From Spirogloea muscicola (Eukaryota > Streptophyta > Zygnematophyceae > Spirogloeales > Spirogloeaceae): a DNA stretch of 25,147 nt. A program made the translations under genes and the position numbers. Shown piece after piece: positions 1-22,325 of the stretch. The stretch's first letter is position 1; the number at the start of each line of letters is the position of its first letter. The notes beneath the pieces were generated by a model. The model did not search any database, was not told the DNA's origin, and saw only the letters and a program-made list of their open reading frames with translations. The stretch covers positions 39,917 to 65,063 of the forward strand of contig WELB01000261.1 of NCBI GenBank assembly GCA_009602725.1, in the 5' to 3' direction.

Positions 1-3000
1 CCGCCACTGGTCATCGCATGCGGAGCACCTGGCGGCGCTGGCGGCAGCGCTGGGGGTGGCGACGCCTGCGCCTCTGCGCCTGGCCGCCATGGAGCCACTG
101 CCAGCGTGGCTTGAGCCGCAGCGGCTGCTTGACATCGGGGAGGCGCCGAACGGCGGCCATGACGCCGCGGCAGCGCTGCGGGCGACGGCGTCGTGGCCAG
201 CAGCTCCAGCGTCGGCGGCAGCGGCGGCAGCGGTGGCCCTGGGGCCGGTTTGGCTTATATTCAGTCCGGACAGCGTGGCCCGCCTGGCGGCGTTCGCTGC
301 TCGCGTGTGCTCCGACCCCGCCCTCACCATGTGGCGGCTGTCGGCTGCTCCATCGTCGCAGCCACCGCTGTCAACGCCAGGTTGCGGCGGAGCACCAGTG
401 ACTATTAGCGTGGCAACGCCAGTGGTCCGTGCAGTGCTGGGTGTGCAGTGCGCCAGCGGCAGCGGCCACTGGGCGCCCGAGGCTGCGGCTCTCACGCTCG
501 CGCCGCCCTCCAACGGCGCGCCGCTTGTCGTGCTCCACGCCAGCGGCGGCGGCGGCGGTGGTGAGCGGCGGTTGGCAATGGAGGCGAGCTCCATGATGCT
601 CGACCTGTGCATGGCAACGAGAGGAGAGAGGGCAAAAGGAGGCGAGGAGGAGGGAAGGAGGAGGGAGGGAGCGGGCTGGCTGCACGCGCTGCCACTGCTG
701 CGTGCAGCGGAGGAGGCCGGCCAGCCGGTCTCGCTGGAGGTCGTGGTCCACGGCAGCAAGAGCAGCGGGGACGGCGGCGGCAGCGGCAGCAAGCACTTGC
801 AGCTGGCGGCAGCGCTGGCGGAGGCGACGCGGCGACGCGGCGGCGGCGGGCTCGGTATCGCAGGCCCGGGCGCGACCTTCTCGGCGGCGGCTGCCGAGCA
901 ACTGGCCGAGGTGGAGGCGGCCGATGCCGTGCTGCGGAAGGCGGTCCTCGCCAGTGCAGTGGTCATGACTGCGGCCGCAGTGCCACGACTCGAGCTCGTT
1001 GCTTCGCCTGCTGCCGCACATGCCGCTGGGGCGCTGGCGCGCGGCCTCAGCGGCGCTGTCGCAAGCCATGGGCCGGGGCCGCCGACTGCTTCAGCGTCGA
1101 CAATGGCAGCTGCATTGTCATCGACGCTGGCGCTGCGGGCTGACCATGTGGTGCTGGCGCTGGATCTAGCGGAGATGGCCGGGGGGGACAGCAGCGACGG
1201 GAAGGGGGAGGAGGGAGGAAGGACTCAGACCGAGGCGGCGGCCTTCCAGCGGCCGCAGTGGGGCCGTGGCTGGACTGGCCTGCGAGTGGCGGCGGCCGGC
1301 CTGGACCTGTGCGCCACGGCCGCCCCTGGCGGCGTGGCCGGTGCGCGCCATGTGTGGCTGAGCGTCGGCGAGTACGCCGTGTACGGCGGCCGGCGGCGGC
1401 CTGCTGTTGGTGGCGAAGCGTGGTGGTGGCTCACAGGGGAGGAGGCAGGGAGGAGGGAGGCGGCAGAGGAGAGAGGTCGGAGCAGAGAGGCGGGGGAGCG
1501 TGAGCTCTTTGCCTGCCGCGCCGCTTGCCTAGGCCGCGGAGCTGGTGGCGGTGCGGCAGGCGGCAACGTGCTGTCGGTGGGCACCGCAGGCGTTGCGCTT
1601 GCGTACACGGAGCTGCCCAACGGCGGCGGCAACGCCGTGCTCGCGCTCACAGTGAGAGGCGGCACTGCGTCGGCGCCCGGCGGCCGCTTGGACTGGCTGC
1701 TCGCCCTTGCCGGTTTTGCTCAGAAGGCCTCGACAGCATTCGCCAATGCTAGACCTGGGGATGAGGGAGGGGGCTCTCCCGGCCCTTCTCGACCTCCCTC
1801 CTCCCCACCCATCTCGCCGTCCTCCTCCACTAACGTCTTCCTCAACCTCCATGACGTCGGGCTCTGCTACTGGCCAGGTCCTGAGGCAGCCGCCGCTGCC
1901 GCCGCCCGCCTCGGTGCAAGCAGTAAGCCCGCTCTGAAGCCTGTCACGCTCGTCACTGCTTGTGAGACTATCTGTTACACCAAAATGTGTCATGACAGTA
2001 CTTGAAATGTGATCTATACCTCGTTCATTGAAGCTTCTTGCTAGTGTGCTAGGACAGTTACTTGACCAGGTTCTTAGAACCAAAATATCTAGTTCTACAC
2101 CTAGTTGTGGACACTACTGCCAAAGTTAGGACCTGACTGATCATTTGTCAGCCCGTGCGTGCACCAGGTAGCAGCACCGCGGCAGCGGCAGCTGCAGCAG
2201 CGCCGTGCCGGCCTGTTGCTTGCATGCTACTGGTGGCGGCGGTACGTGTTGTTGGCCAGCTCCCGGGCGCCTTCGGCAGCAACATGGCAGCAGATAAGGA
2301 GGGGACTGTGCCAGCGCTGCGGTTTGAGGTGTGGCTACGTGATGCGGCAATGCACGTTCTTGACCTTGCCGTGCGCAAGACCCCCGCCGACCGGCGGTCT
2401 CTAGCGCCGGACGGTTGGAGCGCTGCTGCCATGGCTGCCCGCGGATTCGTCCAGGTGTGCTCACCTCCCCTCTTGAAGGTAGTCTTCTAAGCTGTCCAGG
2501 AATAGTCTGAATATTTTTGACTTTTACCTGAAGACTAGCCTAACCCAGCTGGAGAGGCAGATCTCAGTAGCGATCAATACACCTTGTTCATACCTGTGCC
2601 ATGTGATTGTGCAAATTCCAGATGTAAGCTCGAGTCTAATGATTGTGAAGCTCAGCCTGTATGTGCTTAGAAGCTCAATATGTCAGTCAAGCTTCAAGAG
2701 TCGTAAGCAATCATTGAGTCCAAGTCCAAGGCAGAGTCTGCAAGCATTTCATTGACGCCTCTTCTCACGGCAATGTAAGTACAGAGCTCTTCAGATTCAT
2801 CATATTTTTACCCAAGTGGAGGGCTACTGTAACTCTGACTTACCATTTACTAACTTATCAATCACTTAATATGGAGAAGGTGGCTCGCGAGGGCGTCATG
2901 GAGGCGTGCGTGCAATCGCGTGCCACGGGCGGTGGCGGAGGCGGCGCCCCACAGTGGGAGCTGGAGTGCGCAAACAACCAGCTGCGCCTGGACACGTGCT

Positions 3001-6000
3001 GCGACACGGCAGCAGCTGTCGCGGGGCTCGGCGGCCAGCTGCAGCAGCTGCTGGCGCCCGACCCAGCGGCGGCGTCAATGACGATGGTGGCGCCGTCGCT
3101 GAGGAGCAGCGGCGATGGCAGCGGCAGCAGAGAGGCGGCAGCGAGCTCGGCTGGCAGTCTTCCGGCGGCGCTCGCGGAGCGGCCGAGGAGGGCAGAGGGT
3201 GGAGGACGAAGTGAGGCGGCAGCAGCAGCTGTGGAGGCAGCGATGGCGGCGGTCCTGGCCGCTGTCCCTATGGCCACCGAGACCTGGGAGGTGCTGACAG
3301 CGGTGGAGCCCGTCGCGCTTCCCAAGCACGTGCCGGCCGCCATGGCCAGTGACGGCGGCGGCTGCTGCAGCAGCGGCCGTACGGCCAGGCAGCAGCCGCT
3401 GGCCGGCCCCATGTTCATCGAAGACTACTACGAAGCAGCTCCAGCAGTAAGCCCTGCCGCCGATGGTGGCGCTCCTGGCCCGCCTTCACGGCCGGCGGCG
3501 GCGTTGGCCGGCGGCGGCAATCGCAGAGCGTCAGTGGGGATGCGGCAGTCCGAGCAGTGTGCCGAGTGGTACAGCGGGCGCGCCGCGGAGGTGCGGCCTG
3601 ACCACGTGCCAGTGGCGCCGGTCCGAGAGCAGGAGCCCCAGTCGGGCGGCCTTGGTGTGAGCGGCGCTGACGGCAGCGGGGCCCAGCGTGGCGGAGGCGG
3701 CGGCGGCAGCGGCGGCGGCGGCGGCGGCGGCATGGTGCTGGCTGCCAAATTCCCGCCGTCGGCAGCCCGCGTCGTGCTGCGGGACCTGAGCCTGCGCTGG
3801 CGGCTCTACGGTGGCCGCGACTGGCCCGACAGTAGCGCTCCGGCTGCTGACCCGGCAGTCTCCGCCGCTGACTCGGCCGTCAACGCCGCTGCTGCGGATG
3901 CAGCATCGGATGGCGTCAGCAGCTGTCGAGCATCAAGGGGCCGCCAGCAGGACGTGTGCATGGAGGTGCAGCTGGCAGGCGTGCACCTGCAGCACGACGC
4001 GTTCCCTGCCGGCGGCCTGTACGCGTCGCGCCTGGCCGTGGGCGTGCGCGACGTGGGCGTGTACGACTGCAGCGCCGCCGCTACATGGCGCCTCGTGCTC
4101 GGGCCGCACCGCGTGTCCGGGCGGCCGCGCGAGCCAGCTGCCCGGGCGCTGCGCCTCGAGATGGAGGCCGTGCGGCCTGACCAGCGGTCGCTGCTTGAGG
4201 AGTACAGGTGCGCATAGCCTTCATGCCTCATTGCTTCAGCTTAGACGGAGTGCATGACAAAGTAGATCGGCATTCCGAATTGTGTTTGTCTAGCTTTACC
4301 CAAGCTCTTATGTTATGTAAGTGCCATTTTGTCAAGCTACTTTTCTGATTTCTACAGCTTACGCCCCAATTGCAAGCGCTTACTCAACGTCCTTCTGTCC
4401 TAATTAGCTTAATGTAGATCTCGAAACATTTCCTAGAGCTCCTCACCGAGAGCCCCTGAGTGATGCGCTCCTGCAGGCTGCGGGTGGCGCTGCTGCCAAT
4501 CCGCCTGCACCTGGACCAGCGGCATATCGACTTCTGCCGCGACTTCTTTGCACCGCCTCCGCCGCCAGCGGCGGCCGGGGGGGCGGCAGCCCCAATGGGC
4601 GGGTATGGCTGCGCCAGCACCAATGGGTCGGAGGACCTCACCACTGTCATTGCTGAGGAAGCTCTCCTACCCTTCTTTCAGGTGCAGGCACTGCAACACT
4701 CAGGAGTCCTATGACTGATATCTATATTGACACATGTTTGAGGAATCAAAGCTAGGTACCTGATTTGTGGGTCCCCAAGGTCCAGAGCAATGGACTGACA
4801 GACACGTCTGTGGTTGCGTGTTGTTCCAGTGGTTGCGTGTTGTTCCAAGAGCCTGAGCATGCAGCAATGACTGGTCTTGGTTACTGTTCTTAAAATCATA
4901 TCAGCTATCTCCAGCGCTGTTGACAACAACTCGCTTGACATACTACGATACAGCTACTCTGGGATTGACAAAGACATCAACCATGTCTACATTAGCAAGC
5001 TGACTTGGTAGTACATTGTACGTTGGCAGGTGTGCGAGCTACGGCCCATCACGGTGCGCGTGGACTACCTGCCGCGCCGCATCAACCTGCGGGCGCTCCG
5101 TGGCGGCAACTACGGCGAGCTCCTCAACTTTGTGCGGTGGCAGGGCGTGGAGCTGCAGCTCAAGCGCGTGCGCATCGTCGGCGCAGCCGGGTGGGAGGCG
5201 CTGGGGGGCGCCTTCCTTGGCGAGTGGCTGGAGCACGTCGCAGCCACTCAGGTGCACAAGTTTGTGCGCGGCGTGTCCACCATAAGGCCACTGTACGCGC
5301 TCGGCGAGGGCGCTGCAGCGCTCGTCAGCCTCCCCGCCGAGCAGTACCGCCGTGACCGCCGCCTCCTGCGTGGCATGCGCAAAGGTCTGTGTATATCACC
5401 TCGCTTCATGAAATCACTTAATGCACTTACTATGGGCCTCCAAGCTTTAACAAAGCGCTAAGTCAGATGAGAGAGCTAAAGATTTCAGAGCCTTGTCATG
5501 AAGCCTGCCTTATGTTCCTACTTTCGCTGAAGCTGGAAGCGCAAGTAATAATATACAGATTGACATCACAAGTATTTAGTGCAGAGGCATGCAATTGGAA
5601 TTGTTACTACGTACTGCGGTTAAATGCAGCATTGATGCTTGATGTGAGCTATCTGTGTTCCTGAGCGAGGGTTAGTGACATCTCTCCGAGTCATGCCTCC
5701 TAAGTGCTTGCTGCCAAAGCTGGGCCGCCTCTACCATCAAGATACTGATAGTCAGTGGCGCTCATAGCAACCCGATGCATTGGTCGGTGGTCCCAGGCGC
5801 AGTGGCGTTCGTGCGCAGCGTGTCACTGGAGGCACTGGGGCTGGGTGCGCAGCTGGCGGCTGGCACGCACGACCTGCTGCAGCATGCCGAGGTTGCTCTT
5901 GGACGCGGGCTTGGCACGGCGCAGCTGCCAGGGGCGGTGGCGCCACCAGGAGGCGGCGACCAAGGCCGTGCGCTGTCGGCCGCCAGCGCAGTGGCTCAGC

Positions 6001-8383: not shown

Positions 8384-8457
8384 ACTGGGCGATGGCATCT
8401 CGGCCGCCATCAAGCTGAGCTGCAGCGAGGAGAACCTGAGAGTGCTGAGAGACGGCC

Positions 8458-10719
8458 ATGGAGGTGATAAAGGACGTCGACGCAATGCGGGCGTGGTCGC
8501 GGGCGGTGCGACGGCGCGGCGGCGGCGGCGCCGTGGCGCTGGTGCCCACGATGGGCTACCTGCACGACGGCCACCTCTCGCTCGTCCGCGAGGCTCGTCG
8601 TCTCGCCGGCAATGCTGGCGTCGTCGTCGTGTCCATTTACGTCAATCCGGGGCAATTCGCGCCTACCGAGGACCTCGCGACATACCCACGTGACACCGCT
8701 GGCGATCTGAGCAAGCTGGAGGTAAGCCCAAGTTGCACGCCTTTGCCAGATCACAAACCTTCGCACTGACCCCAAGCTTAAAATCTGTACTCAGCTCCAA
8801 CTTTGTCATTTCCTGATCTTAAGTGGCGGTAGCTTATGGGTATCCTCAGCTTTAGCTGCTGCCGTGACCGTCAGCCGCAGTCGTGATTTCACATGCTTTG
8901 CTAACGTTGAGCATGGAGCTTGCTTTGCAGGTTTCTAGTAAAAATTTTAGCTTTTGTGTCAAGCCAGATCTCTATACCCCTAACCCTCAAACCTAAACCC
9001 CTAAACCCTGACCCTAAACCTAAACCCAAACCCTTAACCCCTAAACCTTCACCCCACAGTGTACACTCGCACTCTATGTAGCTTAGCCCTCAAAACCTCG
9101 TCAACTTCTGCGAGTCCTAAGCACTATTGTACATAGGACCAGAGATGCAGCAGCTGTGCCTTACTTGTGGCAGATCGGGAAGCTGCACCTCACTCTCAGG
9201 GCGCTCTCCTGTGCTGCCAGTGCAGACGCTCAGCATTGACGCCGTGTTTCTGCCAGCCGACCTTTATGTTCGGGATGCTGCGGCCTCAGTATCCACGGCA
9301 GCAGCACTCAGTAACTCTGGAGCTGCGAGCAGCCGGGACGCTGTCGGCAATGCAGAGGGGCTGCCTGCAACCAGGAGTAGCAGCAGCAGCGGCGGCCACG
9401 AGACGTGGATACAGGTGGAGCGCCTCCAGCAGGGGCTCTGCGGGCGCAGCCGGCCCACCTTCTTCCGCGGCGTAGCCACGGTCGTTGCCAAGCTCTTCAA
9501 CATCGTGGAGCCCGATATCGCAGTTTTCGGGCGCAAGGACTACCAGCAGTGGCTCCTCATCCAGCGGATGGTGATGCCCGAGCAGCACTTAAGCTCAAGA
9601 AGGAAAGGAAGCAAAAGAAGGAATTGACAAAAGGACAACACAGTCTCACTGAAATGCTTGTAATTATACCCATGCCATTCACTTACAGACTCGTGACTAT
9701 TCTGCTGCAATCGTCATAAGCAGTGAGTGCCAAGGGGTCTGCGCAGCCCTGTCCGCCAACTTCTGTTATCTCTTTGCAGGTTAGGGACCTCAACTTTGCA
9801 GTCGAGGTGGTGGGCGTGCCGCTGCTGCGGGAGCCAGACGGCCTGGCGATGAGCAGCCGCAACGTGCACCTTGACCCCGACCAGAGGCGGAAGGTGTGGG
9901 CTTGCACGTCTGCAATCCTGCTAGCTGTGCTAATGGGCTTTTAGCCTAGGCTTCTTTGCCATTATAATATTTGCCTAAATTAAGCAGTGATTGCTCATCT
10001 GCAGGGCAGCCATTGTATGTTGTCCTCTGGCTGACAGAGCCAGATTCAAGAAGTCTCTGAGATTTGCTGTCACCATCTCTCAGACTGCTCAACCTCGGTT
10101 GCACTTCAGATCATGTCCAGCTTGTCCTCATTATACACATAGGTCCCAGAAGCCTGCATGGCAAAGCTTGCACGCCTTTACCACGTGGCTTATGGGCTCG
10201 TCGTCTGTTGATAGGCACTCTCCATCAGCACAGCACTCCAAGAAGTGAGCGAGCGGGTACAGTCCCACGAACTTGACGCACAGCCCCTTGAGCAGCTAGT
10301 CATCAGCTCAATCCAAGCGGCTGGGGGGAGGGTAGACTACGTTGAGGTTAGCCCCATGTGCCTCAATGTGATATATCAGAGCTGAAAGTGTATCCATCAG
10401 GTTGACTATGTGCAAGATGAAAATCTATAGGACCTACAACATGCTCTGGCTTTCAGCTCAGCGTGCCTACTTTTTTGACTGATTGCCACTGTTCTATGCT
10501 GTCCTTCTCTATTAGATTCAGCAATATATGGCTACTGCTGACTTGCTCACTGTCATTTCTCATGTCCTGCTGTATTAGATGGTGGGCCAGGAGTCCTTGG
10601 ACCGTGTTGAGCGGATCACAAAGCCGTGCGTCCTGGCGGTGGCTGCCTGGTTTGGCTCGGTCAGGCTGCTGGACAATGTGGAGCTGCAACCGTCAGGCAG
10701 AGAAGCAAGCTTGTCATAG
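8458..10719 (+). CDS. panC: Pantothenate synthetase (pantoate-beta-alanine ligase)
   Basis: Joins pantoate and beta-alanine with ATP to give pantothenate, AMP and PPi, the last step of vitamin B5 synthesis (known for the family). Exons 8458-8721, 9226-9570, 9780-9893, 10215-10346, 10579-10719; all introns are phase 0; 331 aa, close to plant PanC. Active-site motifs: MGYLHDGH (residues 32-39, HIGH-type ATP site), NPGQF (63-67), FGRKDYQQW (189-197) and MSSRN (227-231, KMSKS-like loop). The C-terminal dimer/lid part is GGRVDYVE then [19 protein letters not shown]. The start is fixed because an in-frame stop at 8446 precedes the ATG. The catalytic core starts almost at once, so there is no transit peptide and a cytosolic enzyme is inferred, as reported for plants. 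Exon 2 carries a roughly 45-residue Ser/Ala-rich spacer between LYVRD and HETWI, in the place where plant enzymes also carry one. Exon 4 has an unusual short acceptor (GATAG), but it restores ALSISTAL. Confidence 0.95.
8977..9050 (+). repeat. Degenerate telomere-like tract in panC intron 1
   Basis: A run of about ten CCCTAAA-related units (CCCCTAA, CCTAAAC, CCCTGAC, CCCTTAA and similar) sits in the middle of the 8722-9225 intron. The units differ by single-base gains, losses and substitutions, so the tract is older or more eroded than the one in ATG2 intron 6. It has the same orientation, with the C-rich strand in the mRNA sense. Confidence 0.88.
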
Positions 10720-12051: not shown

Positions 12052-15000
12052 TTATTGGTTGTTGTCAGAGGCGGGCAGCGAGAGCATTTTCAGGTGCTGC
12101 GAGAGGTCTAGGAGACGGAGCCGTGTATCAGTGGTGCACAACCACCTCCTCTTGACCGCCGTCTACACGTCAGACATAAGGAAAGCGTCCATCAGTGCAT
12201 ATCAGCAATGCAAAGGGCGTGGACTTCGACTTCATCTTGGACGTTGCCAGAATCTAAGGATACAATCCTAAGCAAGATAAGCACTCAATTTATCAGCTTG
12301 CAGTCATTGATGAGAAGAATTCATTGTACAGGACAAGACGTGGACATTGAACTCTAAGCAGCGTGGGAAGCACTTTCAAGAGCATACTGGTGCTTCTAGA
12401 ACGTGAGCCAAGGCAAAGGACGCTGCAACTGGATCATCCGCCTTGCTGCTCAAATTAACAAGTGCTTCCGCCTGGCAACAAGGACAACAACCACATCAGT
12501 AAATGAGCAGCATCACCCACAAGGGCTTCATGTATGCTGCTGTGCTTTGTCCATGGCATGCATGACAGTAGCTAGATGACAAGAGGGTCATCCTAACCTT
12601 AGGAACTATCCGCTGACAAAGCTCAATGGTGCGTTTGGTAAGGTAGAGCAACTGCCTCATTTTCCGGCCCTCCTCCACTGCGTCATCTTCCAAGAGCTCA
12701 ATCGGGGCCTGACATGAATTTACAGCTTGTCTCAGTGCTGCAACTTTCCTCAACTTCGACTGAAATTCAGAAGTGCACCAAAGGATCAAAGACCATGTCA
12801 TATAGTTGACTGGTAAGTTTATTTCTGTCCTGCAACTCCTGGCTGGATGGAGAGTGCACCGATCTTGACTTAGCACCTTGGCGACGTGCAGACCAAACGA
12901 ACCACCTCGTTGTATTCTCAGACTGTACAGGTACAGCAAGTTAGTCAGTTGCTTTGTCTTGTTGTGAGGTCAGAAGTGAGGCTTTCTTTTTTAACTCAAG
13001 GCAGGGCTCAGAGATGACGACTTTGTGAATGAGACATGCCAACAAAGAAGTGATGCTGTATGTCAGGCTGAAACCCCTCATGGATATAGACTGCTAGTCA
13101 TTCGCAGCATGCGGCACGGACCTCGTCTCAGGCACTTGAAACCGCCTAACCCCGTGGGCTACAATCACAGATCGACCATCTGGTTTATAGTGTTGAACTT
13201 TGAGGTTCTGACTAAGTGGTATTGATGGTGGGCAAGAAGTGTCAGACAGGCAAGAAGTGTCAATCAGGATAAATCAACTCAAGAAACACAGACCAGAATA
13301 AAACCATGTTGCGTCGCTTCATTTTGCGCTTCATTCAACGAAGTAATACATAACCATTGGTAGCAGTGCAATATAGTACTGTCAGGCGCAACAATCGGCA
13401 ATCAACACCAATTACTTGCCTTGCAGTGCAGCTCAAGTATGAGAACTCACAGCAAGGGTGCCAATGACGTGTGCAACGTTGCTTGACGAAGTCGACTCCT
13501 GAGACCCCGAGGAATAGTCCAACCCAGCTATGCCAAATGGCCTTCCTTCTTGGACGCACTCCTTGACCTGAAGCAGTTAGCAGAAGGGCCTTGATTAACA
13601 AGTTTGTCCATAGTGCAGCTCAAAATTACGAGGTTAAGATACAGAAGGTAGCATTTGTCATGACAACAGGGGATGCAAGAAGGACGTCCTCACTGTATTA
13701 AGTCAAAGTAGTGTCACAGTACATATGCTTCATGTCGTGGGACTTTGACTTCAGGCTTCATGAGATTAGAACATGGTTTTGGGGCTTCTGTCAAATTGGG
13801 TACCATGAGTCGGTAGCGGGGCTCAAAAATGTGGTACGCCCGTGACCAGCCGGGGAAGACAACGTCGTCAAACAGGGCGAGCGCCACATCGCCGCTGCTC
13901 CAGGCCCGCCACCCTGCTCTGACTCGTCGCTGCTCGCCGGCTTTCCTCCGATCCAAGCCGTCAGCCAACACCCTCTCCTTATCTGTCTGATCCTGCTTAC
14001 TCGCTCTCGACTGCAATGCCTCCTGCCTCATCCTTGCCTCTTCTTCGCCCTTCTGACCGCGCCTTGAGCCCCGCTTCATGGCGTCAAGCACCACCTGCTG
14101 CGTTCCTCCCTGGAGAATGCCTGCAGCGTCCACCTTCTTGTCTCCACTTGCTGCAGCACTCGCCAGCTCCCTCAGGAGCCCAATGGAGGCCTTCACGTCT
14201 GCTTGTGCATCTTCGCCTGCCTTTGACGACAGAGCGTCGGCAAGACTTGTTGCAGCTTGAGCTGCTTCAACGGGTGAACTGGCAGGAATGGCCTGAATGG
14301 AGACTGCTCTAGCCGCCCTCTTCCCATCCTGTTGAGCTCCTGCTTGTTGCTCCTGCAATTGGCTGACTGGCAGAAAGAGCTTCTCGCTGACCACATCACT
14401 GCATGAAAGAGTAATCACTACAGTCACTACAATCTGAATAATACTGTCAACGATGTGCAATACACTCTAGACCTTGGCATGGCACGATGTCTCAGGCATC
14501 AATGGCTAGACATTCAAACAATGTCCCGACTGTCCTTACTCGAGGTACAGGATGGCATTCAGTCGTGGTACTCCAATCGAGAACTGAACAAATTGTGAGA
14601 AGGCCTCAAGAGGTACTGGCGAATGGGCCCCTGCCACGAGTACAAGACAATACATAAGAACGTAGCAGTTGGAGCCAACAGCCGGGCCGAGGACCGGAAG
14701 TCATCCGGCTGAGGATCAAGGAGTCAAGGCTTGGGGTTTTGGGTGTACGGTGCCTACTCATGCCATGGATCTCAGGCTTGTACAAAAGGCTACTTACGCC
14801 CTCAAGATTTCAAGCAAGGTTCGAAGCACGGCCTCTGAAGCTATTCTGCAGCTGTTGCACAAGCGCTACGTTCCAGATATAAATCAAAGCCGCTCTGGGC
14901 TGAATAGGTACCATCGGAGGTGAAGGACAGGCCCACTGCTCCAGCGGTAGAGGTGTTTGCACCAAAGAAGAGGGTCTCATTGTTGTCAGACTGGGCTGAA

Positions 15001-16642
15001 TCCAGCTGCACCCCACCACGCGACCTCTTCCAGACCGCTTGGCCCAGGAAGGCTCCAGCCCTGTTGATATCAAACAGCCACTAAGCCTCACTCAGAACAA
15101 CTTGTGCTCAGATGTCCATTGTTGGTTTACGTGTTAGCAACCTCAGCGGGCTTATAAGATGAGTGTCAAGTAAACAACCAACAGTGACCAGCAGCATGCA
15201 AGCCACATCAGGTTGCAGTCTACTTGCCTGAATCGTCAATCATATATTCATATTGCCATACTTGCAGACAATCACAGCATTGAGATGTTGGGGTACAGAT
15301 TTGTAGTGCAAGAATTTCGAACTTTGGCAATAACAGTGATTGTTATGGTGCGTAGCAAGGCTCGTTCACCTGGCCCCATGTGGGAATACAGTAGTTAGTC
15401 GCTGCACAAATTCTGTGAAATCAAAGCCTGCAGCACAAACATCACAATGCCATTGGGCCAAAGAAAGCATCCTCATCCTGTCCTTCAAAAAGCTCCAGAT
15501 TGTGGTGCTGGAATTTTCTGGTGTGCTTGCATGGACAAACAAAGGTCTTCAGGCTCTCAAGACGTTCAAATTCTACATTTGCTAAGACTGCGCCACTCAC
15601 CAGGTGCGCAGAAGAAGAGCATGTGAGGGTTCTCTGCTACCACAGCGCGCTCCATGTTGGGAAGGTACGGCAGTGCCGGGCTGGCCGTGTGGAAGGAGGT
15701 GGCCGCGACACCGGGCAAGTGGGCAAGGCAAAGCACAAGCCGGAAGCTGTTGGGGCTCCGGTGGTCGCCGCCACCCAAGGAGTAGAGGTTGCGGTAACGT
15801 GCTGGGCTGGAGGACGGGAACGTGATCGAAGCGAGGATCGAGTCAGCACTGCTGCTGTTGTTGTGCTGCGGCGTCCGCGCCACCGCTCTGCGCGAGGAGC
15901 GGCCATGGCCGCCATGCCCGCCGGCATGCAAGGCGGGGAAGAAGTCAGCCCAGCTCTCTGCTTCGTCCGTGCAGCTGGCAGCGTCCTGCGGCCCCGCCGC
16001 GCCGCCGGGCTCGCCCTCCTCCCACATTGCCTCCTGGAGGTCCTCCAGCAGCGCCCCGAGGTCCACCTCCTCCTGCTCGTCGTCCTCGTCGTCGTCGTCC
16101 GTGTCAGTCCCCCCCCCGTGTTCCTCGTCGCTGCCGCTGCTGTTCTCGCCGCTGTCACTGCTTTCGTCGTCGTCGTCGTCGTCGTTGTCGTCAGTGGCAG
16201 AGAAGAACTCGAAGCCCGCATTGCTTGCACGCACGTGCTCCAGCAGCGCTGCAAGGTCCTCCTCGTCGTGCACCCGGAAGCCACCCACGCTGACGACGCC
16301 GCTCCGGCGGCTCTCCTGCTCGCCACCGCCGCTCCCGCCGCTGCTCGCTGCCGCCGCGGCTGTCGCGGCCGTGCCCCGCCTCTCTGCCGAGCTGCGCGGC
16401 TCGCCGGCCACAGTGCTCGACCGGCTGCCGGGGTCCCGGCTGAGCGCATTCGGCCAGGGCAGGCCCACGCAGCCGATTAGCGGCGGCGCAGCGCCAGCCT
16501 CCGGAAGTGTCGCGGCCATCTCGTCACGGCTGGACGCCAGGAGCTCCGCCAGCTTCGCCACGCCCGCAGTCGCAGCTGGGGACGCGCTCGACACGAAGGC
16601 CACGGCCGCGGTCGGCGGCCCCCCGATCATCGACCGCGCCAT
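12052..16642 (-). CDS. FIST-like sensor region fused to a LON substrate-binding domain
   Basis: Exons on the minus strand: 16642-15601, 15427-15370, 15060-14912, 14630-14540, 14398-13804, 13567-13451, 13207-13122, 12922-12877, 12708-12598, 12471-12388, 12150-12052. They join in frame to 825 aa. Residues 12-58 (AAVAFVSSASPAATAG, LIGCVGL) and about 299-415 (RLVLCLAHLPGVAATSFH, HMLFFCAPGFDFTEFV, FPHGARAGAFL, TLFFGANTSTAGAVGLSF) follow the FIST N pattern, a small-ligand sensor domain known mainly from prokaryotic signalling proteins. Between them sits an insert of about 240 residues with a strongly acidic Asp/Glu/Ser tract (151-193). A charged, Ala-rich linker (about 450-615) precedes a LON N-terminal domain (about 620-815: LALFDDVVFPGW, YHIFEPRYRLM, CVQEGRPFGIAGLD, IGTLA, KPDGRSVIVAHGVRRFQV). 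No AAA+ or Ser-Lys protease part follows, so it is not Lon protease. The LON domain here may bind substrates or partners, as in LON-only and cereblon-like proteins (inference). No targeting peptide is seen. LON is sure; FIST is likely; exact splice points are by eye. Confidence 0.82.
13229..13265 (+). repeat. Short direct repeat in a FIST-LON intron
   Basis: GGCAAGAAGTGTCA is repeated after 20 bases inside the intron between exons 6 and 7. It is a simple local duplication with no evident function. Confidence 0.75.
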
Positions 16643-17359
16643 CTCCCACGCCTCTGCGGCAGTTCACAGGAGCCTCTTGTCAGTCATGAGTCTGGAAAGA
16701 GCTTCAGTCTGGCCTCGAGCCTGTCGCCCGTCTGCAAGACATGCCAGGCCACAGCTGACGTAGCGCCCAGAGGCACATTGCCCCTCTGCAGCCAGCTGAG
16801 TCCATCGCGAGGCGTCCGGCAGAGCAACTGCGAGCACTCGGACGTCATAGTAAGTGGGCCGTCACCCCAAGCTCCACATAGAAGCCCAAATTAGCGATGC
16901 TCAGTGAGCCCTCTTGACACGGGCGGTGGCGCAGACCGGCCTCCGCATCAACCTCGCAGTCTCACAAGTGCTGAAGCAGGCCCTCTGGTTAACTGAGCCC
17001 CACCAGATCGCAGCTGCAACACGCAGGAGCATGCATTCTATGCATATCCCTTTGATATTTGAAAACAATTATGAAAAGCCGGCAAGTAGCTGGTCAGATG
17101 TTCTCTTCACGTGAACCATATTACCGACATCCTGACTGCAGTCACTGATCCCAGTAGCTGCAGGATCAGCCGGACATGATGACGCACTCCTCTGCAAACC
17201 GAGCGGCCCCTCTTAACCCGAGGTCTGAGTAGCCCAAAGGGTCCCATTACCACCCATTATAATACGCGAATGGCCGGCTTAACCTGCTCAGTAACGATGT
17301 TGCATGTCCCCCATCCCTCTCGCTACCGAAGTGGTCGTGGACAGCCACTGATGGTGGTT
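16643..17359. other. Upstream region of the FIST-LON gene; no gene seen
   Basis: This stretch presumably holds the 5' UTR and promoter of the minus-strand FIST-LON gene, whose start codon is at 16642. GC content falls off to the right. The short ORFs have no family resemblance, and I cannot point to a TATA box or other defined promoter element. Confidence 0.35.
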
Positions 17360-17790
17360 CCCTGTGGCTCCTGACGACGGGCTAGCGGCGCTTGCGGCGT
17401 TCCAGAGGGCCATCGCCAAAGGCCCGGACGGTCTGCAGCTCCGGAGCTCGGGCTCGGCTCGGGAGCTCACCCACGACGGCGCCGTGGCCGGCCCTCACGT
17501 TGGCCACGACCGCGGCGAAGCGGTGGACCCGGCCGTCGTCGCCGCGGAGCTGCGCCGCGAAGCTCTCGTCCTCCGGCGCCGCGCCGCCGCTGCCGCCGCC
17601 GCCGCCGTCATGTACGAGGGCCGTCCAAATCTGGCGGCGCCCGAAGCGGCGGGCCGCGCGGCGGAAAACCCGGCGGGGCGCGCGCTGCGGACACGGAGCT
17701 AGCGAAGGCGCTCCGGGAGCTGCTGCCACGTGTCAGCGCGTCGCGGCGCACCGGGGCCGCCCAAGTCAACGGACGACCTCGGCTTAGCAT
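17360..17790 (-). other. Isolated GC-rich block with an open minus-strand frame (17382-17729), possible exon
   Basis: The block is very GC-rich inside AT-richer spacer. The minus frame reads like protein in part (RRQIWTALVHDG, then EDESFAAQLRGDDGRVHRF) and ends in a basic tail (PLERRKRR, stop at 17382-17384). A stop lies just upstream in frame, so it would need a splice acceptor or a start inside the block. The plus strand is also open across it. I recognise no family. It may be a terminal exon of an unnamed gene, a promoter CpG-type block, or a remnant. Confidence 0.25.
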
Positions 17791-17944
17791 GGGTGGGTTG
17801 GTTTCTCACTTTCCTGTGGCTGGCTTTTCACAGAAAACAGCCGTTCCAAGTCAAGGCAGTGGCTGTGACCTGATGTTGCTCACTCGTGGGTACTGAGCTT
17901 CCCTCTGCATCGTCTACGTGTTTTGCAGTGTTTTGCAGTGTAGT

Positions 17945-18070
17945 CCTTTTGCCGGCTCCTCTTTCTTTGGCTTTGGACATTGTCCATTCGCTTTTGGGCT
18001 GGCTTTGCCAGCCCCTCTTCTCTATGGGCGAGCACTTTCTGTGAAAGGCCAGCCCATAAGAATGTACAAG
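17945..18070 (-). repeat. Dispersed repeat, inverted copy (partner at 22229-22325) plus core copy B
   Basis: The reverse complement of 17945-18036 matches 22229-22325 over roughly 90 bases, by eye nearly nine bases in ten. Shared landmarks in order are GTGCTCGCCCATAGAGAAGA, GGCAAAGCCAGCCCAAAA, GAATGGACAAT and AAGCCAAAGAAA. Copy B of the short core (CTGTGAAAGGCCAGCCC...GAATGTACAAG) follows directly at 18040-18070. A small hairpin (GGCTGGC, 3-base loop, GCCAGCC) lies at about 17998-18014. No coding capacity is seen. It is consistent with a short non-autonomous element. Confidence 0.8.
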
Positions 18071-20257
18071 TATGCATCTTTCCACAGCCCTCGCTGCTTC
18101 TTTACCTCAGCAGCAGCCCGATCACTTGTTTCTTCTTCTTTCTGCTGCTAGAAACTGACCTTCACATGTGCCAGCAAATTCGCCGCAGGTTGACCGGGAA
18201 GTGATGATCAGCTGCGATGCACAGATCTTCGCGAAGTGGTCAAAGGCCATTCCTCCAAGTCTGTGCTAACGCAGGGGGACAAAGTGCACACACAAGTACT
18301 GTAACGTGGAAGAGGAGATGTTGCACCTCGTCATTCACCTCCCACTGCGACGAAGCAGGTGGCCTCTTTCAGCCTGAGCTCCGCTGCTCCAGGCGCTTGC
18401 CTTCGGCGCAAACGTGGCACTGTGCTCATGGTGAAGTACTTACTGCACCTCTCAACGCCGCTGCCTACATGTGGGGCAAGCTTCACATACGTTCCCATTG
18501 TTGTCACAATACCAACACAGGAGCTGCAGCATAAGGAGATGCGTAGAAGACATGAGTGCGCCACCCCGGACAAACTGCTGGAAATCGTGGCCACTTCTGC
18601 CTGGCGTACCCTAGAGGCGTCCTGTAGGTTTGGACGACCCTGGAGCACAGTGCCCGCGTCCACCGTAGGCAAGCGCCTGCAGGAGGCGGAGCTATGGCTG
18701 AACGTGTNCCCCCCCTCTCTCAACCCCCCTCACTTTCGCTGTCCCTCTCTTCCGGCTCCACTTCCTTTCCACCACCATCAGCGCCTTGTCATGCGAGTAG
18801 GCGTCGGTGCGAAATGACGTCGATAGGTCTAGACGATAACAAACCTTGGCAAGTGTATGACCCAGCCTAGGAGCCACATAGAGAGAAAAGTGGTCCTCCA
18901 TCCTCAGCGTGAATCACACACCGAAGGGTGAGTTAGGCTAGTAAGGCCACGTGTGAAGCCCAGTCAGCGGTCCTAGTCAGATCGACACAAATAGGCAGTC
19001 GACAGGATGTGGCACGACAGCCTCTTTGGGACGAGCTGTTTCCCTTGTAAATACTTTGCGTGGGCTGGCCTCAGCTCAACATATGAACTTCTCCATTTCT
19101 GTTGGGTTGCGAGAAGCGGGAAATGGAGAGCTTCATTACACGCTTCGCTTGTAGACAGGTCCTCTCGATAGTAGTGCACATGTCTGGACTGGGCCAGGTA
19201 CAGCCAGTTGAAATTAGAAGACAATGTTGAAGCCTCATATGGGGTCCTTGGAGTGGAGATTCTCGTAGCCAAGTATAGGGCCCTTCGAGCTGGCCATCGT
19301 CTAACCATCACCAAGTCTTTTGCACTTCAAGCAGATTGTCTTCACTTTCGTGTGAGGTAGTTTGTCAGCCTGAAAGTCACCATTTCTGAGATTCGTTGAG
19401 GCAAGTTGCCGGTTCATGTGAGGTAGTTTGTCAGCCTGAAAGCCACCATTCCTGAGATTCATTCAGGCAAGTTGCCGGCAATGCATCACTTCGGAATTAG
19501 ACTCACACGACAGTCGCCTGTATTAATGCCCCCAAGCGTGCATAGGATAGGAAAGGCCATAAGAATCAAACATTTTCCAGACATCGTCCACTGTTTGTTG
19601 ATCTGCTTTCAGAGAGGAGAATGAGAGGCTCACCAGAAGCAGATAGCAGCTGATAGTACCAGCTCACGAATGAAAATTGAGAATCTTCAAAATTACTGCT
19701 GACTATTGCATTCAAGTGTCATGCACTGTACCAAACCCTGCTTGGTTGTTGGAGGTTTTGTCACAATGTCTTGTGCCCACTTACCACTCAGACGTAATGT
19801 AAGAATATTTGCAACAGCTGTGCTACAGCCACTCGTCTTGCTTTGCTTCTATTTGACCTCCCTTCTGCTTAACAAGTGTCAGCCTGGAGTGTCACATCTG
19901 CGAGAGCCAATCATAACCAGCATTCACATTGGCAGAGACAATCTAGACACTGGCATTGATCAAAAAAGACACTTGAGGCAAATTCCGATGCAGCACCAGC
20001 ACAAAAGCTTTGCAATGGCTAAGGCAGCCATGACATATGGTAATGTCAAAACCCTCGAACAGGAGCTGCTGCGGAACTAGGCAACACTACCAGCTAAACC
20101 TTAACTCAGACCACTCAAAGTGGTAGTAAGAGTGTGCAATGTACACAAAAGAGCTGCTACAAGAGGAGGCTTGATAGGCCAAGCACATGCAACCATGCCA
20201 GACACTCAGAGCCCCTAACTTCACCACCAGACTGTGGGAACAAGACAAGTAGGCATA
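18071..20257. other. Spacer with a degenerate coding-like stretch; no named gene
   Basis: At 18217-18720 all three plus frames show short protein-like runs (for example VEEEMLHLVIHLPLRR and LLEIVATSAWRTLEASC), but no single frame stays convincing. This suggests either small exons of an unrecognised gene or a decayed element. Position 18708 is an unresolved base (N) beside a C run. From about 18830 to 20257 the sequence is AT-richer with no codon bias. It contains the 66-bp tandem duplication at 19351-19478 and presumably the 3' UTR of the EF-hand gene, which ends at 20258. Confidence 0.35.
19351..19478 (+). repeat. 66-bp tandem duplication
   Basis: Two adjacent copies with a 66-base period (19351-19416 and 19417-19478) both start TGTGAGGTAGTTTGTCAGCC and end CAAGTTGCCGG. 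They differ at only a few positions, so the duplication is fairly recent. It lies in non-coding spacer. Confidence 0.92.
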
Positions 20258-21468
20258 TTAACAGAGCCCGAAACTTTGGCACATCATCCTCCTGAACTCC
20301 TCAAAGTCGACCTGACCGTCACCATCCACATCCACGCCGGCAATCATTTGGCTGCACTCCTCAACAGTAACCTTGTCCTCACCAAGGTTACCAAGCACTC
20401 TGCAGCAAACGCTACTGCCCTGGTCAGCCTCCGTGCATCTCGTGGTGATGTACATCAAAATTTCCCTACACTCACAATGAGCTTGCTTTGTGGAACCGAT
20501 CATGTATCTATGTCAATTGTATTTGAAGCAGTCTCACATCATCCTTATTGTGCAAACTTGGCAACACAAGAGAAAAGAATTTCATGAGCATCTACCTGTG
20601 TAGTTCCTCAGCAGAGATGTAACCATTGCTGTCCTTGTCAAACAGGTTGAAGACTGCTCGGAGCTCGTCCTCAGTGCCCGAGCCGTTGCCAGCACTGGTC
20701 GCAAGCATATTGAGCCTGATAAACTCCTCCAGATCAATGGCGCCGTCACCGTCCAGGTCCACCTCTCTCACCATTGCTTCAAGCTCCTCCTGCATGTGCC
20801 ACATATTAGCCACTGTCAGTTCAGCGTCACTGGAAAGTGCTCATCGTAGCTGCAATGCCAGCGACAACACTAGACAATTCAGACGGCCGTAGTACATGCG
20901 ATGGTCACCAAATGGCCATCACTCATGTGCTACCTGTGCTTACACTGGTCACAAGGACCCAGGCAGCTACTCCCAATTTGCATGAGAAGGAGCAAAACGG
21001 CATGCACGTTCTGAGCGAGGAACCATCCCAGCATGGTGCAATGTCTAAGGCCTTGACACTTCAGTAATTGACATTATGCCATGGTGCTATACACTGAAAA
21101 GTAGCCCGCTAGCTTACGCTGTCAATTGGCCACCTCGGTAGCATGCATGCTGAACCTCCTGCCTACCGTAAGTACCAGAAGAGGATGCTTGAGCGGGACA
21201 CCAGGCCATTTGAGGAGCAACATAAGCTTTGACAGTTGATAGACTGTACCTTGGTTGGGTCATCGCCGAGGCAGCGGAGCATGGCGCCGAGCTCCACCGT
21301 GCAGATTCTGCCGTCGTTGTTCACGTCAAATGCCTGGAAGGCCTCCGTGAGCTCCGTCACGAGCGTGGGGTCGAGCGACGAGAGGCCGTCCAGCTGCGCG
21401 GGCTCGCGCGCCGCTGACGCCATGCGGTCGGAGACGGCGCTGGGCGACAGGGCGACCTCGGCGGCCAT
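20258..21468 (-). CDS. Calmodulin-like protein with four EF-hands
   Basis: A calcium-binding sensor that would bind Ca2+ and then a target protein, in the cytosol or nucleus (known for the family; the target is unknown). Exons 21468-21250, 20789-20596 and 20399-20258 join to 184 aa. All four 12-residue loops are canonical, with D at position 1, G at 6 and E at 12: [12 protein letters not shown] (48-59), [12 protein letters not shown] (84-95), [12 protein letters not shown] (124-135) and [12 protein letters not shown] (161-172). It is longer than calmodulin (about 149 aa) because of a 36-residue Ala/Ser-rich N-terminal extension and a Gly/Ser-rich linker (103-112) between the lobes. No second-residue Gly or terminal Cys-rich lipid anchor is seen, though the last residue is Cys. 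The ATG at 21468 is the first in frame, and a GC-rich leader lies upstream. It could equally be called centrin-like; the divergence from calmodulin makes CML the safer label. Confidence 0.93.
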
Positions 21469-21676
21469 GTGACGGCTGGCTAAGGAGCGCCGCGCGCGCT
21501 CCGGGATTCACGCCGGCCCTTGCGGCGGGCTCCGCGCGACGGCTCTGCCCCTGACACGCTAATGCCGATGCGACCGCCGCGGCGCCGTCCACCGAGAGGA
21601 GAAGCTCGCTGGGAAATTCTCCACGCCGGGGAGTTTGCCGGGGCGTTCCGCCGCGCGGCGAATGCGGCGCGGCTCG

Positions 21677-22228: not shown

Positions 22229-22325
22229 AAGAAGTGCTCGCCCATAGAGAAGAGTGGCCGGCAAAGCCAGCCCAAAAAGAATGGACAATATCCCAAGCCA
22301 AAGAAAAAGGTGCCGAGCAAAGGGC
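22229..22325 (+). repeat. Dispersed repeat, forward copy (partner at 17945-18036)
   Basis: This is the plus-orientation member of the inverted pair. It begins GTGCTCGCCCATAGAGAAGA and runs through GCCAGCCCAAAAAGAATGG. A related phrase (GGGCTCGCCCATTTGAAAG) recurs at about 22389-22407, so pieces of the element are clustered here. Confidence 0.8.

Follow-up and report, generated by a model that had tools for sequence, protein, structure and literature searches.

The 25,147-nucleotide stretch of Spirogloea muscicola contig WELB01000261.1 analysed here (the window, whose positions are used throughout) raises the question of whether a single minus-strand gene encodes a protein that joins a FIST-derived segment to a LON substrate-binding domain and, if it does, what the role of such a protein might be. 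The modelled gene runs from ATG 16642 to TAA 12052, and its eleven GT-AG exons splice without a stop into a protein of 829 amino acids (AAs). Sequence comparison supports a single reading frame that carries both a FIST-derived segment and a LON-only domain, and we judge it probable that the two belong to one gene. FIST and LON are each known kinds of domain; what may be new is their joining in one chain. Our reading is that this is a single nuclear algal gene for a putative non-enzymatic adaptor, whose likeliest setting would be chloroplast proteostasis, either in choosing substrates or in regulation, and we assign this reading as a whole a probability of about 0.42.

The LON domain

The C-terminal part of the protein (AAs 619–818) matches the complete Pfam domain LON_substr_bdg (PF02190, profile positions 4–199 of 200) with 62.6 bits, above the curated cut-off of 28.7, and an E value of 6.3e-17. 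No second Pfam family is found in the modelled protein at E ≤ 1, the AAA+ and serine-lysine protease domains of Lon proteases have no Pfam match in it, and 11 residues separate the end of the LON match from the stop. A first-pass annotation of this DNA, made from the sequence alone, had predicted such a C-terminal LON domain free of ATPase and protease. By sequence the protein has weak relatives in the PDB, 1zbo (E = 0.0023) and 7cay (E = 0.0037).

The domain was compared by blastp with the open reading frames (ORFs) of 30 LON loci retained among the matches in genomes of the cyanobacterial phylum, 19 of which have a frame shorter than 300 AAs and 11 a longer one. Seventeen of the 19 short-frame proteins match it at E ≤ 2.3e-7 (the best, L136, at 3.5e-15), and the best E value among the eleven long-frame loci is only 0.23. 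Against a profile built from 16 of the 17 LON-only matches, the domain gave E = 1.4e-19 for one comparison and an hhalign probability of 98.4. Because it matches most of the short-frame LON proteins and not the long ones, the domain is, as judged from these alignments, of the LON-only type that occurs in cyanobacteria.

The FIST-derived segment

The FIST family (PF08495) has no Pfam or NCBIfam match in the modelled protein at E ≤ 1. Pfam detects both FIST halves of a cyanobacterial control easily (118 and 112 bits); HMMER filters discard most weak matches, which bears on the negative result for the algal protein. The FIST proteins used for direct comparison came from 43 loci of the cyanobacterial phylum (L082–L124), 31 of which passed a start-motif filter for the type with ~430 AAs and were used; 12 and 8 of these 31 make up alignments A1 and A2, respectively. 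Within a set of 24 ORFs, blastp matched L086 to AAs 302–414 (E = 1e-5) and L094 to AAs 1–147 (E = 0.003). The profile hidden Markov model (HMM) of all 31 proteins gave 8.4 bits and E = 4.5e-5 for one comparison, a score reached by none of 1000 shuffles (best 4.3).

By hhalign, AAs 302–416 (segment 2) align to profile positions 89–197 with a probability of 91–94 and a score of 55–58. AAs 271–480 score 55, and the maximum among 345 decoys (186 further ORFs of the window and 159 from the fetched loci) is 29.7; the best of 300 shuffles of segment 2 reaches 30.0. This points to homology of segment 2 with the same portion of proven FIST N proteins. Segment 1, at the N-terminus, is a weak match to profile positions 18–68, with an hhalign probability of 27 when it is taken from the ATG, 56 with the preceding residues EAWE and 60 with seven preceding residues. 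The score, 31.2 when the segment begins at the ATG, rises to 33.4 if AWE is included and to 36.1 if EAWE is; the best of 300 shuffles scores 25.5, and from the ATG the segment exceeds the best decoy only just. The two segments lie in the right order, and segment 1 includes the motif PLIGCVG, whose Cys is invariant in alignment A2. As controls from the same protein, the LON domain and the linker score 17.9 and 14.2 against the FIST profile. The insert that separates the two segments (Table 1) has an acidic core at AAs 147–210 that is 30% D and 19% E.

The second half of the FIST fold was sought as well. FIST C (PF10442) has no Pfam match in the protein (E ≤ 1), and no ORF of the gene is among the matches listed for the FIST C part of the cyanobacterial profile. 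By its sequence the protein does not fall with the FIST N + FIST C proteins, which have a three-repeat fold and the MFxCxGRG and GEIG motifs. A NosP-like FIST profile (from the 5 of 10 candidate loci that passed the filter) does not match the FIST segment (hhalign probability 1.1), which resembles the cyanobacterial ~430-AA type and not the NosP-like type. AAs 451–525 match the NosP-like profile weakly by HMM (2.3 bits; E = 0.94 among window ORFs), and a diverged FIST C in the linker was rejected as being at chance level, since 80 of 200 linker shuffles score as high by hhalign. The FIST fold consists of three repeats with pseudo-threefold symmetry, and BACH1 is bound through the third repeat of human FBXO22 (PMC11185555, from the accessible part of that paper); the algal protein would have sequence for the first two repeats at most. 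The first-pass annotation had assigned the first half of the protein to FIST N. A FIST N half is indeed seen against the cyanobacterial proteins, but it is split by ~240 residues and does not make a full sensor; a Pfam search of the joined protein, which that annotation had suggested, recovers LON_substr_bdg and neither FIST N nor FIST C.

Gene model

The phases of the exon junctions match throughout the model, and the introns are 126–309 nt long. Just two bases of the window are ambiguous (18708 and 21689), both of them outside the gene. The eleven in-frame minus-strand exons of the first-pass annotation were recovered; its product length of 825 AAs is corrected here to 829. Exon 5 is a stop-to-stop frame of 250 codons that continues from the linker into the LON domain; its open frame alone gives 19.3 bits against the LON-only profile, and its linker part has no Pfam match. 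The open frame of exon 7 alone gives 7.8 bits on the same profile, and exon 3 by itself gives only 1.7 bits on the FIST profile (positions 167–195). For exon 7 (13207) and exon 9 (12708) the acceptors were picked for their fit to the LON domain, so the frame around exons 7–9 is not independent of homology. An exon 7 acceptor 4 nt earlier was tried and rejected, because it breaks the frame with either of two exon 9 acceptors.

Codon usage, trained on 351 codons only, gives weak coding support for the modelled exons: among the three frames of the sense strand the modelled one comes first in 10 of the 11 exons, and among all six frames it does so in six of them.

An in-frame stop sits just upstream of the residues that precede ATG 16642, and EAWE can therefore count as coding only with a further exon upstream; an acceptor at 16651 would bring in AWE, and one at 16653 EAWE. 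Such an exon was sought between 16700 and 18600, and none is proposed because the 225 spliced candidates did not outscore 739 false ones (artificial chimeras), the best candidate reaching -0.1 bits and the best false one 6.2 (8.9 at any profile position). A GC-rich patch at 17300–17799 (65–81% GC) upstream of the gene may hold a first exon, and none was identified there.

Table 1. Exons of the modelled gene and parts of its FIST N half
Feature	Position	Strand	Encoded part	Remarks
Exon 1	15601..16642	-	AAs 1–348: FIST segment 1, acidic-core insert, onset of FIST segment 2	Open frame; donor GTGAGT; start provisional
Exon 2	15370..15427	-	AAs 348–367: FIST segment 2	GT-AG, in frame; within AA 302–416 match
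Exon 3	14912..15060	-	AAs 367–417: FIST segment 2, GAVGLSFTSD at end	GT-AG, in frame; hhalign AAs 302–416
Exon 4	14540..14630	-	AAs 417–447: no family match	GT-AG, in frame
Exon 5	13804..14398	-	AAs 447–645: A/Q-rich linker to initial LON strands (LON begins near 13884)	Phase fits exons 4 and 6
Exon 6	13451..13567	-	AAs 646–684: LON domain	Gene model and Pfam
Exon 7	13122..13207	-	AAs 685–713: LON domain (DGRS...GVRRFQV)	Gene model and Pfam
Exon 8	12877..12922	-	AAs 713–728: LON domain	Gene model and Pfam
Exon 9	12598..12708	-	AAs 729–765: LON domain (APIELLEDD)	Gene model and Pfam
Exon 10	12388..12471	-	AAs 766–793: LON domain	Gene model and Pfam
Exon 11	12052..12162	-	AAs 794–829 and the stop codon TAA: end of LON domain	Gene model and Pfam
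FIST N segment 1	16463..16654	-	AAs 1–60 and EAWE before the ATG	EAWE coding only if upstream exon is spliced
Insert within FIST N half	15743..16462	-	About AAs 61–300 (~240 residues), acidic core	Cyanobacterial FIST has ~20 residues here

Comparison with known proteins

The algal protein shares with the cyanobacterial ~430-AA proteins that combine FIST N and FIST C a FIST N half over profile positions 89–197 and, weakly, over 18–68, where the Cys of LIGC appears to be kept; unlike it, those proteins have a FIST C half with MFxCxGRG and FFCxGEIGP motifs, no LON domain and no long insert. The human protein FBXO22, which combines an F-box with FIST, has a similarly diverged FIST N half (8.6 bits on the profile of alignment A1, versus 9.9 for the algal protein), and its GVVGLSFSG corresponds to the algal GAVGLSFTS. 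FBXO22 differs in having an F-box, a well-conserved FIST C (36.1 bits) with Cys326, and no LON domain. Its FIST domain, whose fold has been solved, recruits substrates, as the accessible part of PMC11185555 describes. By counting along the alignment, the Cys of its MFACVGRG motif is Cys326, the residue suggested as the point where degraders attach (PMC13316043, accessible part); an equivalent is not found in the algal protein because this Cys belongs to FIST C. The Cys of the FIST C motif MFxCxGRG is present in 12 of 12 cyanobacterial proteins (L086:955-2187 and relatives) and aligns with FBXO22 Cys326, the proposed aldehyde-degrader attachment site.

On the LON side, the closest matches among the proteins compared are the cyanobacterial LON-only proteins, which likewise have a non-catalytic LON domain but are mostly ~215–260 AAs long and are without FIST. 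Cereblon, a substrate receptor of a ubiquitin ligase, consists of LON and CULT domains and is not known to contain FIST; it is like the algal protein in being eukaryotic and having a non-catalytic LON, and unlike it in that the algal protein has no Pfam match beyond LON. The plastid LON-like (iLON) proteins, of which Arabidopsis LON-like1–3 (AT1G19740, AT1G35340 and AT1G75460) were compared by description only, also have a LON domain without ATPase or protease. By its sequence the algal protein has the non-catalytic LON domain that defines iLON and carries in addition a FIST segment, which the family as described does not have. The Arabidopsis LON-like proteins are described, in the accessible part of the source, as having only an N-terminal LON domain and being caught by a chloroplast CLPC1 trap. 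LON-only proteins are present in plant plastids (PMC8889267), and what they do there is unsettled; the accessible text of PMC6460959, a paper on plant Lon protease, covers neither FIST nor iLON.

Occurrence of the FIST–LON pairing

Full-text literature searches found no report of a FIST–LON pairing. A Rosetta-stone test covered 194 genomes of the cyanobacterial phylum. Matches to FIST N were found in 81 genomes, to FIST C likewise in 81 and to LON in 108; LON is also present in 79 of the 81 FIST C genomes, a co-occurrence that may reflect no more than lineage and genome size. With the FIST segment as query, tblastn against plasmids returned only two records, at E values of 3 and 5 and with unrelated annotations, and phages gave no match. 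Close relatives were sought by pattern among viral contigs (167 matches) and, for the LON domain, among genome contigs (117 matches), and none was confirmed in either set. The view of the first-pass annotation that the pairing is undescribed holds for the literature searched and for the matches listed in the 194 genomes, eukaryotic genomes being outside the scope of the search; the fusion may be common in algae yet unreported, or unique to this alga.

Proposed function and alternative readings

In the adaptor that we propose, the LON domain would bind a client or a protease or ligase partner, the FIST N remnant would add another surface for binding proteins, and flexible spacing would come from the insert and linker. 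An adaptor role in protein turnover, which the first-pass annotation had also proposed, agrees with present knowledge of the two families. The protein might then act in substrate choice or regulation within chloroplast proteostasis (Clp), although the compartment is a guess. We take plastid and Clp as the leading setting because the LON domain is nearest to the cyanobacterial LON-only proteins and because Arabidopsis LON-like proteins were caught by the CLPC1 trap. LON-only proteins are widespread in cyanobacteria, and FIST has been known chiefly as a sensor module of bacteria and, in FBXO22, as the part that binds substrates; if the proposal is right, the alga has two recognition modules on one chain, which would give a handle on what LON-only proteins bind.

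Several observations weigh against this reading. FIST remains unmatched in Pfam at E ≤ 10 even with the insert excised, and the 12-sequence FIST profile gives 10.9 bits, which at E = 1.5 (Z 177635) is not significant at database scale. The exon 1 frame ranks first of 870 window ORFs (6.8 bits, E = 0.13) with an unrelated plus-strand ORF close behind it (5.7 bits, E = 0.26), and one of the 739 artificial chimeras scored 8.9 bits; the evidence for FIST therefore depends on hhalign and on the segment order. No sequence was found in the gene for the third FIST repeat, the one that binds BACH1 in FBXO22. Two of the 19 short-frame LON proteins are unmatched by the LON domain (L132 at E = 1.6, L126 with no match). 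In 8 of the 11 exons the codon score is negative, which does not set them above intron background, and the first 104 codons of exon 5 are in a codon-usage tie with another frame. The start codon at 16642 is uncertain and the true N-terminus provisional. No FIST–LON fusion was found among the matches listed for the 194 genomes, none of which shares a frame, and in the nearest FIST/LON pair found by eye the two lie ~10 kb apart and the LON frame is as long as that of a Lon protease.

The same codon-usage tie, together with the lack of a family match in the linker, would fit two adjoining genes wrongly joined, a decayed or partial FIST gene (exons 1–4) followed by a LON-only gene with its start within exon 5, such as the Met of DAMKRG. 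Free-standing LON-only proteins exist in the cyanobacterial phylum, and a FIST half with no detected FIST C is what a decayed gene would leave. Exon 5, however, is a single open frame from the linker through into LON, and the 141-nt intron between exons 4 and 5 has GTAAGG and CAG borders and matching phases; we consider two genes unlikely. TGTAA is the poly(A) signal of green algae. On the strand of the gene it occurs once between 10500 and 17800, inside intron 8, and it is also absent after the stop codon, hence it is uninformative on this point.

The main rival to a plastid, Clp-linked setting is a cytosolic or nuclear ubiquitin-linked adaptor that resembles FBXO22 in its FIST part or cereblon in its LON part and whose F-box, or another domain, lies in an upstream exon outside the model. 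Both kinds of domain do occur in ubiquitin-ligase substrate receptors, LON in cereblon. For FIST the receptor is FBXO22 (PMC11185555, accessible part), which is about as distant from the cyanobacterial FIST profile as the algal protein is, and the GC-rich patch noted above could be the upstream exon. No F-box or other ubiquitin-system domain was found, however, in the modelled protein by Pfam or in the ORF at 17385–17732, the modelled protein does not by its sequence belong with FBXO22-type F-box proteins, and FIST C, the part of FBXO22 best conserved on this profile, is not found; we think such an adaptor improbable. Equally doubtful is the broader possibility of an alga-specific FIST N–LON class, with LON in place of FIST C, that might serve as a chloroplast (Clp-linked) or ubiquitin-linked adaptor with two substrate-recognition modules.

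A ligand sensor whose FIST part responds to heme, nitric oxide (NO) or another ligand and controls a LON effector, which the first-pass annotation had envisaged as a soluble adaptor for protein quality control or turnover, can draw on the link of the FIST–FIST_C proteins NosP and CdpA to NO and heme (PMC8846402, accessible part), but this sensor is very improbable and heme or NO sensing unlikely, given that FIST C is not found, that the segment is not NosP-like and AAs 451–525 match only at chance level, and that the accessible part of PMC11185555 reports no obvious ligand pocket in the FBXO22 FIST structure.

Neighbouring genes and repeats

Ten window ORFs were scanned for the neighbours of the modelled gene. 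A plus-strand ATG2 (autophagy-related protein 2) gene lies at 2718–5458, where the frames 2718–4214 and 5012–5458 match Pfam ATG2_CAD (1.7e-17 and 4.4e-38, respectively); the frame ahead of them, 2–2002, has no match. A plus-strand PanC (pantoate-beta-alanine ligase) gene has at least two open frames, 8449–8766 and 9121–9624, and an EF-hand open frame is on the minus strand at 21166–21507. These three neighbours and the introns indicate that the window derives from a eukaryotic nuclear genome. Rfam gives no match at its gathering threshold within the window. An inverted dispersed repeat is formed by 17945–18037 and 22232–22323 (81–96% complementary, ~4.2 kb apart), and a tandem pair of 66-nt units with 92% identity is found at 19347–19478.

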